Part shown: piece by piece, positions 41,992 to 48,457 of the stretch
Layout: each line of letters starts with the position of its first letter
How positions within the stretch are numbered: position 1 is the first letter of the stretch
DNA from: Saccharothrix sp. ALI-22-I
Lineage (GTDB): Bacteria > Actinomycetota > Actinomycetes > Mycobacteriales > Pseudonocardiaceae
Direction: 5' to 3'
DNA length: 64,000 nucleotides
Assembly: GCF_001984175.1 (NCBI RefSeq)
Contig: NZ_MTQP01000068.1
Span: 744,001 to 808,000 of the forward strand
Made by a program: the position numbers and the translations under genes
Notes under the pieces: generated by a model
Told to the model about the DNA's origin: nothing
Database searches by the model: none
Seen by the model: the letters and a program-made list of their open reading frames with translations, nothing else

Positions 41992-42869
41992 GCCTGCACC
42001 GGCCGTTGGGCACGTTGTCGGATGGCGAGAACGCTGTCGAGCTCACGCCCGAGACCGCAGGGTGGGATCACACCGGGTTGCGGGTGTTGTTGTTGCACCC
42101 CGGTGGGGTGACCACGTTCGAGACCGGCGATTTCGAAGCGTTCGTGCTCCCGCTCTCCGGCGGCTGCGTGGTCGAGGTCGACGGGGAGCGGTTCGAGTTG
42201 CGGGGGCGGGATTCCGTCTTCACCCGGGTGACGGACTTCGCCTACGTGCCACGGGACGCACGGGTGCGATTGTCCACAACGGACGGCGTCGAAGTGGCCC
42301 TGCCGATGGCGCGTTGCGAGCGCAGGCTCACGCCCAAGTACGGGCCGGCCGACGACGTGCCGGTGGAGGTCCGGGGCGCGGGCAGCGCCACCCGTCAGGT
42401 CACGAACTTCGGCATCCCCGGCGTCTGGGACCACGCGGACAAGCTCATCGCCTGCGAACTGATCACCCCCGACGGCAACTGGTCCTCCTACCCGCCGCAC
42501 AAGCACGACCACACCTGCGACGTCGTCAACGAAGAGATCTACTACTTCCGCATCGCCGGCCGGGACAAGATCACCCCATCGCGTGAAGGTTTCGGTCTCC
42601 ACCGCACCTACACCGACGACGGCGACATCGACGAGGACGTCGTCGTCCGCGACGGCGACGTCTTCCTGATCCCACGCGGCTACCACGGTCCGTGCGTCGC
42701 CGCCCCCGGCTACCCCATGTACTACCTGAACGTGTTGGCCGGACCGGGCGCCGAGCGGTCCCTGGCGTTCTGCGACGACCCCGCGCACACCTGGATCCGG
42801 GACACCTGGGCGAGCCAGGAACTCGACCCGCGCTGTCCCGTCACGACTGCCGAAGGACGGGTGGATTGA
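41988..42869 (+). CDS. iolB: 5-deoxy-glucuronate isomerase IolB
   Basis: IolB (293 residues) isomerises 5-deoxy-glucuronate to 2-deoxy-5-keto-gluconate. It is a bicupin: the first cupin contains GVTTFETGDFEAFVLPLSGG, the second the metal motif PPHKHDHTCD (about 165-174) with EEIYYFR (about 178-184) and a late GYHG histidine. ATG 41988 overlaps the aldolase stop. The IS200/IS605-type element begins at or just after its stop codon, so the insertion left the coding sequence complete. tnpB reads 148 bases antisense into iolB. Confidence 0.93.
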   Translation: MSLHRPLGTLSDGENAVELTPETAGWDHTGLRVLLLHPGGVTTFETGDFEAFVLPLSGGCVVEVDGERFELRGRDSVFTRVTDFAYVPRDARVRLSTTDGVEVALPMARCERRLTPKYGPADDVPVEVRGAGSATRQVTNFGIPGVWDHADKLIACELITPDGNWSSYPPHKHDHTCDVVNEEIYYFRIAGRDKITPSREGFGLHRTYTDDGDIDEDVVVRDGDVFLIPRGYHGPCVAAPGYPMYYLNVLAGPGAERSLAFCDDPAHTWIRDTWASQELDPRCPVTTAEGRVD

Positions 42870-43693
42870 CTTCCTCCCCACGCCTGAAGACGAGGGATTC
42901 CAACCCTCTCGGGTTGGGTTTCCTGCTTCATGGGCGATCGCCTCACCGACTGTTGTCGGGTTGGTCTTACACCGCCTCCACAGGCGGCGACCGCCAGCCC
43001 GGCGGCCAGGATGTTGCGTGCCGCGTTGACGTCCCGGTCGTGGGCTGTCCCGCAACCGGGGCAGGTCCATTCCCGAACGCCCAAGGGCAGCGTGTCGAGC
43101 AGTCGCCCGCAATCCGAGCAGGTCTTGCTCGACGGGAACCACCGGTCGATGGCGATCACGTCGCGGCCGTACCAGGCCGCTTTGTACTCCAACTGGGAGC
43201 GGAACTCCGACCACGCGGCGTCGGAGATGGCACGCGCCAGGCTGCCGCTGCGCAGCATGCCGGACACGTTCAGGTCCTCGATCACGATCGTTTGGTTCTC
43301 ACGAACGAGCCGAGTGGTCAGTTTGTGCAGGAAGTCCCGCCTGCGATCGGTGATCCGGGCGTGTACCCGCGCGACCTTCCGTCGGGCCTTGGCCCGGTTG
43401 TTGCTGCCTTTCTGCTTGCGTGCCAGGCCTTTCTGGGCGAGAGCGAGCCTGGCACGGTCGCGGTTCCCGTGCCGCGGGTTGGTGATCTTCTCCCCGGTGG
43501 ACAGCGTCACCAGGCTCGTGATCCCGGCGTCCACCCCGACCGTGGCATCCGTGGACGCCAGGTGGGCAACGGCGGTTTCGACCAGCAAGGACACGTGCCA
43601 CCGGCCCGCATGATCACACGACACCGTGACCGTGGACGGCTCCGCGCCCTCAGGCAGCGGACGCGACCACACGATCGCCAACGGCTGGTCCAT
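42722..43693 (-). CDS. tnpB: TnpB C-terminal part with RuvC nuclease and zinc finger
   Basis: This frame begins ATGGACCAG right after the amber codon of the N-terminal part and contains all RuvC landmarks: TVGVDAGITSLV (first Asp), IVIEDLNVSGM (Glu), the four-Cys zinc finger CSDCGRLL...CPGCG, and DRDVNAARNIL (last Asp). The nuclease half is thus intact. The normal end is near the element boundary (GIPRLQAWGG), and the frame only runs on through the boundary into iolB antisense for lack of a stop. It may be made by readthrough or stop-start reinitiation, or be silent. Confidence 0.8.
   Translation of the reverse strand: MDQPLAIVWSRPLPEGAEPSTVTVSCDHAGRWHVSLLVETAVAHLASTDATVGVDAGITSLVTLSTGEKITNPRHGNRDRARLALAQKGLARKQKGSNNRAKARRKVARVHARITDRRRDFLHKLTTRLVRENQTIVIEDLNVSGMLRSGSLARAISDAAWSEFRSQLEYKAAWYGRDVIAIDRWFPSSKTCSDCGRLLDTLPLGVREWTCPGCGTAHDRDVNAARNILAAGLAVAACGGGVRPTRQQSVRRSPMKQETQPERVGIPRLQAWGGSQSTRPSAVVTGQRGSSSWLAQVSRIQVCAGSSQNARDRSAPGPANTFR
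42870..43000 (-). ncRNA. predicted omega/reRNA scaffold at the tnpB 3' end
   Basis: TnpB systems encode their guide RNA over the tnpB 3' end and right end of the element. The two right-end hairpins (about 42875-42920) and the terminal AGGAAGTCAA fit that scaffold. The guide would be the adjacent flanking DNA, i.e. the reverse complement of the last bases of iolB. The 5' limit is a guess. Prediction from position and family knowledge only. Confidence 0.45.
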
Positions 43694-44095
43694 CTACGCC
43701 AGGGTGAGTTGGCCGTCGCGCCAGCGGAATGCCGATCGGGTGTACTCCGCCGATGCCTTCCCGCGCTTGCGGGACTTGAACCGCGGATACTTCGCGCGTT
43801 TCTCCCAGAAATTGACGAACGCGCCTTGCAGGTGCCGCAGGCACTGCTGCAACGGCACCGACGAGACGCCACCGAGGAACGCGAGCTCCTCGGTTTTCTT
43901 CCAGCCGGTGAGCATCGCGGAAGTCTCGGCGTAGTTCACGCGCCGCTGCTCGGTGCACCACGCGGCCGTCCTCGCTTCGAGTGCCTTGTTGTACACCAGC
44001 CGGACACAGCCGAAGGTGCGCAGCAACTCCTGCTCCTGCTGCGTGGTCGGCACGAAGCGGTACTTGTAGGCCCGCTTCACCAACGTCTTCGACAC
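43694..44095 (-). CDS. tnpB: TnpB N-terminal part (ends at in-frame amber codon)
   Basis: 133 residues matching the TnpB N-terminus: VKRAYKYRFVPTTQQEQELLRTFGCVRLVYNKAL, then FVNFWEKRAKYPRFKSRKRG and FRWRDGQLTLA. Intact relatives continue LTLAKMD; here the next codon is TAG, immediately followed by ATGGAC in the same frame. A single A-to-T change (AAG to TAG) would explain it. The first part contains the WED/REC-like guide-RNA binding region. Taken with the following frame, the protein would be about 410 residues, normal for TnpB. See also 42722-43693. Confidence 0.85.
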   Translation of the reverse strand: MSKTLVKRAYKYRFVPTTQQEQELLRTFGCVRLVYNKALEARTAAWCTEQRRVNYAETSAMLTGWKKTEELAFLGGVSSVPLQQCLRHLQGAFVNFWEKRAKYPRFKSRKRGKASAEYTRSAFRWRDGQLTLA

Positions 44096-46130: not shown

Positions 46131-46496
46131 TCACCGGCGGGTGGCGGTCCCGGTGCCGTAGTCCTCGGCCGTGCGCGGCAAGGCGGGGCTGACGTCGTGG
46201 AGCACTGCCCGCAGGGGGCCGGCGGCTTCGGGGCGTTCCCACAGCATGGTGTGGATCGAACCGCGCCACTCGGTGGTGAACTCGGCCCGGGCCAGTTCCA
46301 GCCGCACCCGCGGCACCGCGACGAGCCTGCGCCGCGCCTCTTCCATCCGGGCGCTGACCAGGTCGAACAGTTCGGGTGCGAGGACCGCCGCCACCCGGGC
46401 CCGCAGGTCGGGCCACTGCTCGGTGTCCACGACCGTGGCCAGCGCCCCGGCTGCCGCGCCGGCGAGCAGTCTCAGCGGTTCCTCGCGCGCCATCAT
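46131..46496 (-). CDS. small helical protein of the cyclase module
   Basis: The 121-residue protein is mostly helical, beginning REEPLRLLAGAAAGALATVVDTEQWPDLRARV, then RMEEARRRLVAVPRVRLELARAEFTTEWRGSI and ERPEAAGPLRAVLHDV. It resembles a widespread uncharacterised actinobacterial family of 100-150-residue proteins with a V..T..W.. helix and a late E.P....L...L helix (from memory, no search done). ATG 46496 overlaps the cyclase-fold gene stop (ATGA), so both are made together. No catalytic residue or localisation signal is evident. It could be an adaptor or effector of the module. Confidence 0.6.
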   Translation of the reverse strand: MMAREEPLRLLAGAAAGALATVVDTEQWPDLRARVAAVLAPELFDLVSARMEEARRRLVAVPRVRLELARAEFTTEWRGSIHTMLWERPEAAGPLRAVLHDVSPALPRTAEDYGTGTATRR

Positions 46497-47320
46497 GCCC
46501 TCTCGTCAGTGTCCCGGCGGTAGATCGGGCCGAAGTGCGAGCCCCGCTGATCGTTGCGGTCGAAGTTCTGGATCACGTCCGCCTTCTGGGTCGGCACGTG
46601 CGCGTCGCGGCCGGCCTGGATGACCGTCGATCCGCCGGTGGCGACCGCGCTCTGGTTGACCGAGGACGGACCGGCGACGGGCGGGACCGGCACGACCGGG
46701 ACCGCGTCGCCCGGCGTGACCTCGGGCGTGTCGTCCAGGACCAACGCGTGCGCGTCCCCGCTCGGCAGCCACATCCACCCGTGGCCGCTGAAGGTCTTCA
46801 CCCGCACCTCCACGCGCCGGAAGATCTCCGGCCGCAGCGTGGTGTGCCGGGGCACGACCAGCGACGTGTAGATCACATCGGACAGCACCACGACGAGGTC
46901 GGCGTCGGTCTGCTCCAGCGCCGCGTGCGCCGGTTTGCTGTCGAGCAGCCTGCTGACCAGCACCGCGTCCTGGCCGGGGTAGCCGTTGGCGCCCTCGACC
47001 GTGGTGCCGAAGTGGATCGCCATCCGCATCCGCAGCCTGGCGTGCGGCACCCGGTACCGGTTGGTCGTGGCCAGTTCGGCGTCCAGCGCACGCACGTACC
47101 GGTCCACGACGTCGCCCTCCGGCGTCGAGACCGGCAGCACGGCCCACTCCTCGTCACCCTTGGCCTGACGCCGCCACGACGAGCGGTCCAGCCCGGCCGC
47201 CTCGCCCGCCCGGTCCAGGCTGCGCACCAGCAGCTCCTGCAACTCGCGTTGGAGCAGGTCGTCGACCGACCCGTAGCTCTTCAGGTCACAACACACCAGC
47301 AGACTGCGCTGGAAGCTCAT
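46493..47320 (-). CDS. nucleotidyl-cyclase-fold protein with glycine-rich IQAGRD tail
   Basis: This 275-residue protein has a class III cyclase-like fold. LLVCCDLKSYGSVDDLL (about 7-23) places the first metal Asp, RRQAKGDEEWAVLP (about 50-63) the second, and RMRMAIHFGTTVEGANGYPGQDAVLVSRLLDS (about 95-126, cited by parts) the dimer/transition-state region, where Arg is kept but the usual Asn is Val. The C-terminal 70 residues contain NQSAVATGGSTVIQAGRDAHV, a tail type I associate with conflict or signalling proteins. ATG 47320 is preferred; the longer frame adds a basic leader. It is followed by the small helical gene and lies 104 bases downstream of a Crp-type gene. Confidence 0.7.
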   Translation of the reverse strand: MSFQRSLLVCCDLKSYGSVDDLLQRELQELLVRSLDRAGEAAGLDRSSWRRQAKGDEEWAVLPVSTPEGDVVDRYVRALDAELATTNRYRVPHARLRMRMAIHFGTTVEGANGYPGQDAVLVSRLLDSKPAHAALEQTDADLVVVLSDVIYTSLVVPRHTTLRPEIFRRVEVRVKTFSGHGWMWLPSGDAHALVLDDTPEVTPGDAVPVVPVPPVAGPSSVNQSAVATGGSTVIQAGRDAHVPTQKADVIQNFDRNDQRGSHFGPIYRRDTDERA

Positions 47321-47424
47321 GGGTTCGGCCTTTCGACGGGTGCGGACAACGGCCCGGACACGGCTGCGCAGAGTCACTGTGGAGTACCGCATCGGCGCGA
47401 ATACCGCAGAATTGCGGTCTTGCG

Positions 47425-48132
47425 TCAGAACCCCGCGAATTTACGCAGTGCGGTCAGATCCGGCACCAGCACGTCACGTCTCAGGTGACTGACCACCACC
47501 CCCGCTTTTCGCAGATCGGAGAACGCCTTCTCGGCCGTTCGGGGCTTCATCCCGGCGATCGAGGCGAGTTCGACCTTCGTCAACGGAATTCCCAAGGTCC
47601 ACCCGTGCGCCTCTTCGCGCCCGTAGGTCTGCACCAATTCGGCCAGTACCCGCGCCACCCGTTCGGCGGCCGGGTGGGACAGGAAATCCCGCCGGCGCTG
47701 GTTCGCCCAGCGCAGCCGGTCGTTGATCATCCCGATCAATTCCACGAACACGTCGTTGCGCCGGTGCAGGAAGCTCATCAGCTCACCACTGGTGATCAGC
47801 TTCGCGACCACGTCGCCGCACGTGACGACGGTGGCCGAGCGGGGTTTCTGGTCCAGCGCCGCCATCTCGCCGACCAGGTCGCCCGCGACTCGGATCGCGA
47901 GCAGCGCAGTGTCACCCGTTTCGTCGGTGGTCTGCACCTTGACCACGCCGTCGAGCAGGAGCAGGACATGAGTATCCTTCGCATCCTGTTCGATGACCTC
48001 GCGGTCGGCCGTGTACCGCACGACCGTGCCGATGTTCAACAGCTCTTGTCGGGTGTTGTCTCGGAGTCGACCCAGGAGGCTGTTGCTGGGCCACCCTGGA
48101 TCCTGCGTCATCGTGGTCGGCATGGGCAGCAT
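47425..48132 (-). CDS. Crp/Fnr-family cyclic-nucleotide-responsive regulator
   Basis: The 235-residue protein has a cNMP-binding beta-barrel with a textbook phosphate-binding cassette GEMAALDQKPRSATV (about 94-108), a dimer helix (about 118-150), and a winged helix with recognition helix GMKPRTAEKAFSDLRKAG (about 195-212). The cassette retains the Glu and Arg that hold cyclic-nucleotide ribose and phosphate, unlike FNR members. ATG 48132 has an AGGA site at five bases. It is upstream of and in line with the cyclase-fold gene, so synthesis and sensing of a nucleotide signal may be encoded together. Confidence 0.88.
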   Translation of the reverse strand: MLPMPTTMTQDPGWPSNSLLGRLRDNTRQELLNIGTVVRYTADREVIEQDAKDTHVLLLLDGVVKVQTTDETGDTALLAIRVAGDLVGEMAALDQKPRSATVVTCGDVVAKLITSGELMSFLHRRNDVFVELIGMINDRLRWANQRRRDFLSHPAAERVARVLAELVQTYGREEAHGWTLGIPLTKVELASIAGMKPRTAEKAFSDLRKAGVVVSHLRRDVLVPDLTALRKFAGF

Positions 48133-48457
48133 GTGGATCCTGTTACTGTCGTGACCGGCGGGAACTTCCAATGGGCCGACCTGCGTCGGGCTGCAAGTGA
48201 TGGTCTCCCCGAACGTGCTGCGGACAGTACACCCGAATGGGCGTAACTGGTGTCCTCTTGTTCGGCGTTTTGCGCGCCGACCTCTCCTCGAAGATCACGT
48301 GCGAATGCACGCGCAATACCGATTCGAATGGAATTCCGCAGCTCTCGTGAGGTGGGACGGGCGTCACGCCGGGAACAAGCCGCCCGATCCGGGACCTTGG
48401 ACCCGATGACGCGCCGAAGGGCTCGTCGCCGTACCCGAACGTCCCGAGGAGCCGCAT
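48133..48457. other. 325-bp divergent intergenic region (Crp-type gene / OYE gene)
   Basis: No convincing ORF is present. It holds promoters for both directions. One interrupted dyad, CGTGCGAATGCACG (48298-48311), is the only clear palindrome and does not match the TGTGA-N6-TCACA Crp consensus. A GGAG-type site precedes the OYE start. Otherwise I see nothing specific. Confidence 0.4.

Follow-up and report, generated by a model that had tools for sequence, protein, structure and literature searches.

A Crp–cyclase gene pair of Saccharothrix and its relatives, a candidate receptor-gated second-messenger circuit with STAND-type partners and shared terminal motifs

Introduction

The stretch of 64,000 nucleotides from Saccharothrix sp. 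ALI-22-I analysed here (referred to as the window) carries on its minus strand three successive genes, which encode a Crp/Fnr-family transcription factor (48132–47425), a nucleotidyl-cyclase-like protein of 275 amino acids (aa) termed P0001 (47320–46493) and a small helical protein of 121 aa termed P0003 (46496–46131). This arrangement raises the question of whether a putative cyclase and a putative cyclic-nucleotide receiver form a signalling unit and, if so, what switches it on. A preliminary description of the trio located all three genes correctly and suggested a second-messenger module; its interpretation is partly supported, but it overlooked a partner of the STAND/NLR type, the logic of a shared motif and the Bell-likeness of the small helical protein. 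With these elements included, the locus probably encodes a second-messenger circuit that is gated by a receptor. Gene order and its conservation, the predicted fold, the catalytic residues, the STAND-type neighbours and the shared motifs are observations; catalysis, the identity of the nucleotide, assembly through the motif, the receptor function of Crp and a role in defence or cell death are inferred. The publications cited by PMC number are drawn on for the parts consulted.

Results

Matches to P0001 at E≤0.001 were obtained in 170 of 297 genomes, covering 29 of the 46 genera of the host's family and including the host, many of them being paralogues with other architectures. A phylum-wide sample gave matches at E≤1e-20 in 7 of 396 genomes (host included), which is too sparse for neighbourhood statistics. 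Close inspection covered 54 loci, namely all 34 of a scan of named genomes (L064–L097) and L098–L117, which represent 20 of the first 21 rows lacking a locus in the family-wide listing. A Crp homologue is encoded upstream of the cyclase on the same strand at 49 loci and downstream at two (L093, L095), and was not found at three (L090, L092, L097). Co-occurrence of the two genes in relatives, on which the preliminary description had made its proposal depend, is thereby borne out. Because of this arrangement, in combination with the confidently predicted cyclase fold and a conserved and recurrent tail (STVIQAGRDAHV), the observation can be regarded as exceeding chance.

The 49 loci with an upstream Crp gene include four (L085–L088) in which a divergent gene is situated between Crp and cyclase. 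The product of this gene is a membrane protein; two of the four were compared with the PADLOC model of PycTM and both match it (E 2.6e-5 and 3.6e-6), and the PycTM-like protein is probably a second receiver in some genera. Fusions of the cyclase-like domain were observed as well. At L093 (5998–7044) and L095 (5974–7053) it is followed by a TIR domain, then by the Crp gene and a second cyclase-like gene; the L093 fusion matches PF13676 (TIR_2) with E 7.5e-15, and L095 was assigned by likeness. At L114 (2032–5295, minus strand) a protein of 1087 aa encoded directly 3' of the Crp gene combines the cyclase-like domain with an HSP90-like HATPase.

Outside the window's own clade (L064–L076), the gene next downstream of the cyclase encodes a STAND-type protein of about 490–990 aa whose P-loop domain is N-terminal at 27 of 41 loci, as chosen by eye from a locus listing that also contains spurious antisense open reading frames (ORFs) in Saccharothrix. 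Four of the 27 (L109, L110, L112, L113) stem from genomes of the window's genus. Nine of these nucleoside triphosphatases (NTPases) were aligned and display 29–37% identity to the first. Of five compared with Pfam, L098 matches nSTAND3 with a score over the cut-off (32.0 bits), L094, L088 and L084 match it below the cut-off and L105 gives no match. The 14 other loci comprise L077–L083, the TIR-type fusions L093 and L095, the HSP90-like ATPase fusion L114, and L092, L097, L108 and L117; L092 has the tail motif without an adjacent NTPase, and the gene downstream in L077–L083 is presumably aldo-keto-reductase-like. The preliminary description had treated the three genes as one unit: the Crp–cyclase pair stands up in relatives, whereas the small third gene is lineage-specific and a STAND NTPase takes the third place in most other loci examined.

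The C-terminus of the cyclase resembles the N-terminus of the neighbouring NTPase, as in L098 (VVNEFHGPVDARRANFGF versus VVNNFHGRVDAGGASFGF) and L101 (IEFQREVTAPRSVFGISN versus INFNGSVRAEGSTFGVSN). The likeness was scored between the last 40 residues of the cyclase and the NTPase region preceding the P-loop and compared with 1000 shuffles, whereby 19 of 27 cognate pairs reached p≤0.05 and 14 reached p≤0.01. In 21 of the 27, the tail scores higher against the N-terminal stretch than against all other stretches of the same NTPase. The summed cognate score of 1040 was reached by none of 10,000 re-pairings, a procedure that leaves in the relatedness and the shared composition of proteins from the same genome. 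The relation that defines BASS loci, a motif at the C-terminus of the partner recurring at the N-terminus of an adjacent NLR, is thus found in relatives: of 27 loci with an adjacent STAND-type NTPase, 19 show a significant common stretch.

How the window's lineage fits this scheme can be read from the tail of P0001, a protein that consists of a catalytic domain (about residues 1–190), a disordered linker and C-terminal motifs. The Saccharothrix/Umezawaea group forms one clade (support 100/99) with L077–L083 as sister (100/98), and the NTPase-linked loci L099 and L100 are placed near it with weak support (84/82). Mapping the presence of the NTPase on the tree gives eight changes, three of them forced by firm branches, and losses and gains are therefore frequent. 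Orthologues conserve the tail STVIQAGRDAHV, and it turns up again in further proteins encoded by the host genome, in agreement with its earlier assignment to a type found in signalling or conflict proteins. Two motifs can be distinguished within it. Motif 2 (ADVIQNFDRNDQRGSHFGPIYR, 46517–46582, minus strand), in the form DVIQNFDRNDQRGSHFGP, aligns to cyclase tails and NTPase N-termini by way of L099 and L100; L099 bridges the two with its tail MYNFGDVDAPHSHFGPNYG and its NTPase IYNFYGTTNAQGSQFG. Judged from these alignments, motif 2 appears equivalent to the motif that cyclase and NTPase have in common at other loci. Motif 1, the BASS-like QAGRD motif (SVNQSAVATGGSTVIQAGRDAHV, 46595–46663, minus strand), is extra to motif 2, and L100 possesses both kinds next to an adjacent NTPase.

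Motif 1 has copies elsewhere in the host genome. An alignment of the motif (A3) matched 14 places at E≤10, seven of them at E<1e-3, among the 150 of 442 candidates that were scored. The seven are the query itself, four P-loop proteins matched at the N-terminus (C34, C64, C55, C41) and two proteins matched at the C-terminus, one Bell-like (C67) and the other a small membrane protein (C56). According to Pfam, the proteins of C64 and C41:59290 carry NB-ARC and TPR, that of C34 carries NPHP3_N, and that of C55 matches AAA_16 below the cut-off. A weaker N-terminal match (C41:89938, E 1.3) heads a STAND protein with nSTAND5/NB-ARC, and most other weak matches look like chance. Since A3 includes rows from C55, C34 and C56, their E-values are inflated; the independent matches are C64 (2e-10), the Bell-like C67 (3e-4) and C41 (6e-4). 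With P0001 alone as query, the matches are weak (E 0.014, 0.043 and 0.52).

The tail could instead be a conventional docking peptide, a small β-hairpin lying in a groove rather than an amyloid seed, with the rest of the circuit unchanged. We consider this a possible but somewhat unlikely alternative: motif 2 is variable and the tail is disordered in the monomer model, as would suit a docking peptide, but a motif that resembles a motif is what templated assembly predicts, and QAGRD occupies the N-terminal position of NLRs and the C-terminal position of Bell proteins by which BASS is defined in the consulted part of PMC7889193.

Is P0001 a cyclase? Residues 1–190 are predicted to adopt the cyclase fold with block values of 87–98 in the predicted local distance difference test, and comparison by VIA-align identifies a cyclase homology domain, so that the fold on which the preliminary description had staked its reading was indeed obtained. 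Alignment assigns D12 and D56 to the metal positions, V120 to the position of the transition-state Asn four residues before the Arg, and R124 to the Arg itself. Both metal aspartates and the Val–Arg combination had been recognized correctly. D12, D56 and R124 are kept in 54 of 54 sequences (53 loci and the window's own, L097 and five paralogues being excluded) and K175 in 30 of 30. The Asn position is occupied by Val in 52, Ile in one and Thr in one of the 54, and the Asn–Arg pair of the transition state is therefore missing throughout. Loss of the Asn makes catalysis less likely but does not exclude it, because the class III cyclase Ma1120 is active although it has Ala at this position and so shows the Asn to be dispensable; a change to Asn drastically lowers the activity of Ma1120 (PMC4215837). 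P0001 shares 17% identity over the aligned part with this adenylyl cyclase of Mycobacterium avium, and the Lys/Asp substrate pair of Ma1120 is replaced by Gln/Gly. A profile search of the Protein Data Bank (PDB) retrieved Ma1120 at E 0.043, and the single match of a phmmer search with P0001 (E 0.72) was dismissed as chance.

No Pfam or PADLOC match was obtained for 30 members of the family, no NCBIfam match for P0001 of the window and no PHROGs match for two members; P0003 likewise matched nothing in the domain libraries. Canonical class III cyclases (PF00211) were not found at E≤0.1 in the actinomycete host genome of 10.3 Mb, and P0001-like divergent cyclase domains occur at six places in it, the trio included. 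P0001 and its relatives are thus a cyclase family lacking annotation.

A pseudo-cyclase that binds nucleotide without turning it over and serves as scaffold between receptors, the Bell-like effector and Crp is, in our view, unlikely. The family-wide absence of the Asn and the non-canonical base-specifying residues would agree with such an adaptor, as would the report that several cyclic nucleoside monophosphate (cNMP) cyclase domains fused to vWA in conflict systems are catalytically inactive (Kaur et al., PMC7159879, in the part consulted). Retention of the metal aspartates and the Arg in all 54 sequences would be unusual for a dead enzyme, the Ala of active Ma1120 (PMC4215837) speaks in the same direction, and a conserved neighbour of the cNMP-binding Crp type better suits an enzyme that makes cNMP.

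The Crp protein (47425–48132, minus strand) matches PF00027 with 55 bits and PF13545 with 49.9 bits, both above the Pfam cut-offs, and contains the intact phosphate cassette GEMAALDQKPRSATV. With a cyclic-nucleotide-binding domain, the GE..R signature of the cassette and a helix-turn-helix, the pocket is complete, as had been claimed. A pattern search found a cassette of the GEMAALDQKPRSATV form in 42 of 51 partner Crps, the nine misses including the truncated L068. The first codon of the ORF is a TTG (48171); translation more likely starts from the ATG at 48132, which gives 235 aa, the length of the ORFs in L070–L073. Among solved structures, M. tuberculosis CRP, a cAMP-binding protein, is nearest in sequence (57.5 bits), and the alignment places an Asn at the base-contacting position of both. 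This Asn, at the position of S128 in E. coli, was considered as a mark of a cUMP receptor, for which N143 of PycTIR is a marker (PMC11224242), and was rejected because M. tuberculosis CRP aligns with the same Asn. The cNMP domain matches the PADLOC model of PycTIR with 60 bits. A second, paralogous Crp–cyclase pair is present in the host genome (L010:7821–9156, minus strand), whose Crp has Glu in the base-contacting helix (GEQRR) compared with Asn in the window (ANQRR), a difference which suggests that the two Crps may bind different ligands.

In the gap between the Crp and cyclase genes, the palindrome CCGCAATTCTGCGG (47404–47417, minus strand) is a candidate operator. It is the sole match in the window, where 0.04 are expected, and 11 of the 12 orthologue rows in the alignment keep both arms, which are broken in L071. 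The relaxed form CCGCANTTNTGCGG has 12 copies in the genome versus two for a backward control. A classical Crp site (TGTGA-N6-TCACA) was sought near the trio, and the best match, 8 of 10 positions, is unconvincing. Upstream of Crp, a block at 48172–48457 that includes GTTACGCCCATTCGGGTGTACTGTCCGC is near-invariant in seven of eight aligned rows and less so in L075; it is a possible promoter or leader.

The trio is flanked on one side by a gene for a thiamine-diphosphate enzyme, which we take from its sequence to be iolD-like, and on the other by what is presumably an old-yellow-enzyme-like gene. That the pair merely performs ordinary cAMP–Crp regulation, for instance of these flanking metabolic genes, with incidental tail motifs, is quite improbable: the trio does adjoin the iolD-like gene, an antisense frame like that over this gene is seen by eye in several relatives, the base-contacting Asn is that of M. 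tuberculosis CRP and P0001 could supply cAMP since the host genome yielded no PF00211 cyclase, but outside the window's clade the cyclase usually adjoins a STAND-type NTPase, with which it has a tail motif in common, rather than a metabolic gene, and neighbours of the TIR and PycTM-like kinds are indicative of conflict.

The start codon of P0003 (46131–46496, minus strand) lies inside the stop of P0001 (ATGA overlap), and both genes are probably expressed from a common transcript. A P0003 homologue lies 3' of the cyclase in 16 of 22 near orthologues (L017–L038) and in 7 of 13 loci of the overlapping set L064–L076, and the search of L064–L097 found none in L077–L097. By hhalign, the P0003 profile matches the small-helical family A7 with a probability of 98.4, or 98.3 without the motif region and L038, compared with at most 9.8 for 30 column-shuffled controls and 0.4 for the reversed one. 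A7 was built from 16 of 24 loci (L131, L140 and others were dropped) and consists of P0004 from the host, one protein from the host's genus and otherwise proteins from another genus of the same class. Many of them end in YQAGRD-type motifs, for example ASGQARVYQAGRDQHI; the seed protein of A7 was first found through the motif, and the motif-free comparison gives the same result. P0004 occurs in 2 of 40 genomes of close relatives and in 16 of 31 genomes of a genus of the same class. P0003 can be classed as Bell-like on its sequence, the family name being assigned from the description in PMC7889193 (as consulted) and not from a profile. Of the earlier picture of a coupled small helical protein, the coupling and the helical nature hold, the correction being that the gene is lineage-specific.

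A C-terminal motif of its own is absent from P0003 and from most of the 16 aligned small proteins, while that of L038 ends in the full motif RSVTQNATASDHSRVYQAGRDIIGR and that of L030 in a worn form. In L029 (2304–2933) the tail of the small protein has grown at the place of the motif to many QAGR-type tandem repeats, either by expansion of the motif or by plain slippage. No convincing paralogue of P0003 was detected in the host genome. In L069 (S. tamanrassetensis) the product of the gene after the small one has TPR repeats together with a P-loop, and its NB-ARC match lies below the cut-off.

The nearest named relatives by P0001 belong to Saccharothrix, such as S. deserti with 86% identity. 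Elsewhere in the window, a transposase-like frame on the minus strand (42722–44095), which we take to be of the TnpB/OrfB type, consists of two abutting ORFs (44095–43694 and 43693–42722) with an apparent interruption by a stop.

Discussion

Comparison with known systems reveals similarities to three of them. BASS/NLR amyloid signalosomes (PMC7889193, PMC8086366) share with the present loci the short motif that a STAND/NLR protein carries N-terminally and the product of the adjacent gene C-terminally, the occurrence in actinomycetes and, in one lineage here, a Bell-like partner. The partners named in the consulted part of PMC7889193 are Bell, CHAT and TIR; what sets the present loci apart by description is a class III cyclase in the partner's place, accompanied by a Crp gene. 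Pycsar systems, composed of PycC with PycTM or PycTIR (PMC11224242), likewise combine a class III cyclase with a receiver of cyclic nucleotides encoded nearby, and the PycTM-like genes of some loci, the TIR–cyclase fusion of L093 and the match of Crp to the PycTIR model add to the resemblance. In the present loci, the receiver is a DNA-binding Crp and the apparent input a STAND NTPase. No PycTM or PycTIR protein is encoded beside the window trio, and PycTM-like proteins were found in other genera only. The VMAP/iSTAND ternary and two-gene conflict systems (Kaur et al. 2020, PMC7159879; 2021, PMC8195603) also contain cyclase domains, and CRP-like genes lie beside some actinobacterial AP-ATPase systems (PMC7159879). 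As far as described in the parts consulted, these are vWA–MoxR, caspase or peptide-processing systems without a Crp–cyclase–STAND trio that has a common terminal motif. A Crp–cyclase–STAND module was not found in the open-access literature consulted; within this scope the combination is new, while cyclase domains in conflict systems, BASS and Pycsar were already known.

Several findings weigh against a receptor-gated circuit. Of the tail–NTPase pairs, eight of 27 fail p≤0.05, the cognate N-terminus ranks first among all 27 in seven cases (median rank 5), several of the pairs are closely related and some alignments enter the acidic or proline-rich linker (for example L084 and L103); the failing pairs, this kinship and the score added by the linker make the effective evidence smaller than the counts suggest. 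In the sister clade L077–L083, Crp and cyclase are retained, and both tail motif and NTPase are lacking. The window trio has no adjacent NLR or other NTPase in cis, and the receptors carrying motif 1 in the host genome are unlinked to it. No second copy of motif 2 was found among the 150 of 163 candidates scored in this genome (next match E 0.69), and a search at 1e-5, run without positive control, retrieved no homologue of the NTPases that adjoin the cyclase elsewhere. A pattern scan of 21 Bell-like loci found, at one of them (L126), a P-loop protein bearing the motif N-terminally and encoded no more than 1.5 kb away. The preliminary description had proposed a comparison with Pycsar cyclases; none of the 30 cyclases scanned matches the PycC models of PADLOC. 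Finally, Q52 and G113 at the substrate positions are of neither adenylate nor guanylate type; since the specificity residues for both are lacking, the messenger may, as far as sequence can tell, be a non-purine cNMP.

In the proposed circuit, a STAND/NLR-type NTPase would sense a threat and oligomerise. Through the homotypic motif at the receptor N-terminus and the cyclase C-terminus, the cyclase would then be recruited or templated. Class III cyclases act as dimers, and clustering would switch on synthesis of the cyclic nucleotide. Crp would bind the product and change transcription, with PycTM-like, TIR- or Bell-type outputs in some lineages. In the window's lineage, which lacks an adjacent NTPase, the added QAGRD motif may allow receptors encoded elsewhere to recruit the cyclase, and the Bell-like protein would be a likely membrane-active effector. 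The role of the circuit would be one in defence or cell death. The most specific version is put forward tentatively: in NLR oligomers, a prion-like motif may serve as template for its counterpart on a class III cyclase, and an assembly event with a threshold would be turned into a diffusible messenger. A Crp dedicated to this messenger would act as its reader, joined in other lineages by effectors of the PycTM or TIR type, and Saccharothrix would produce a Bell-type killer alongside.

If this circuit exists, its output would be a second messenger and a transcription factor, resulting in a cascade that could be measured by mass spectrometry and reporters. Moreover, it would connect research on NLR signalosomes with that on Pycsar-type cyclases.

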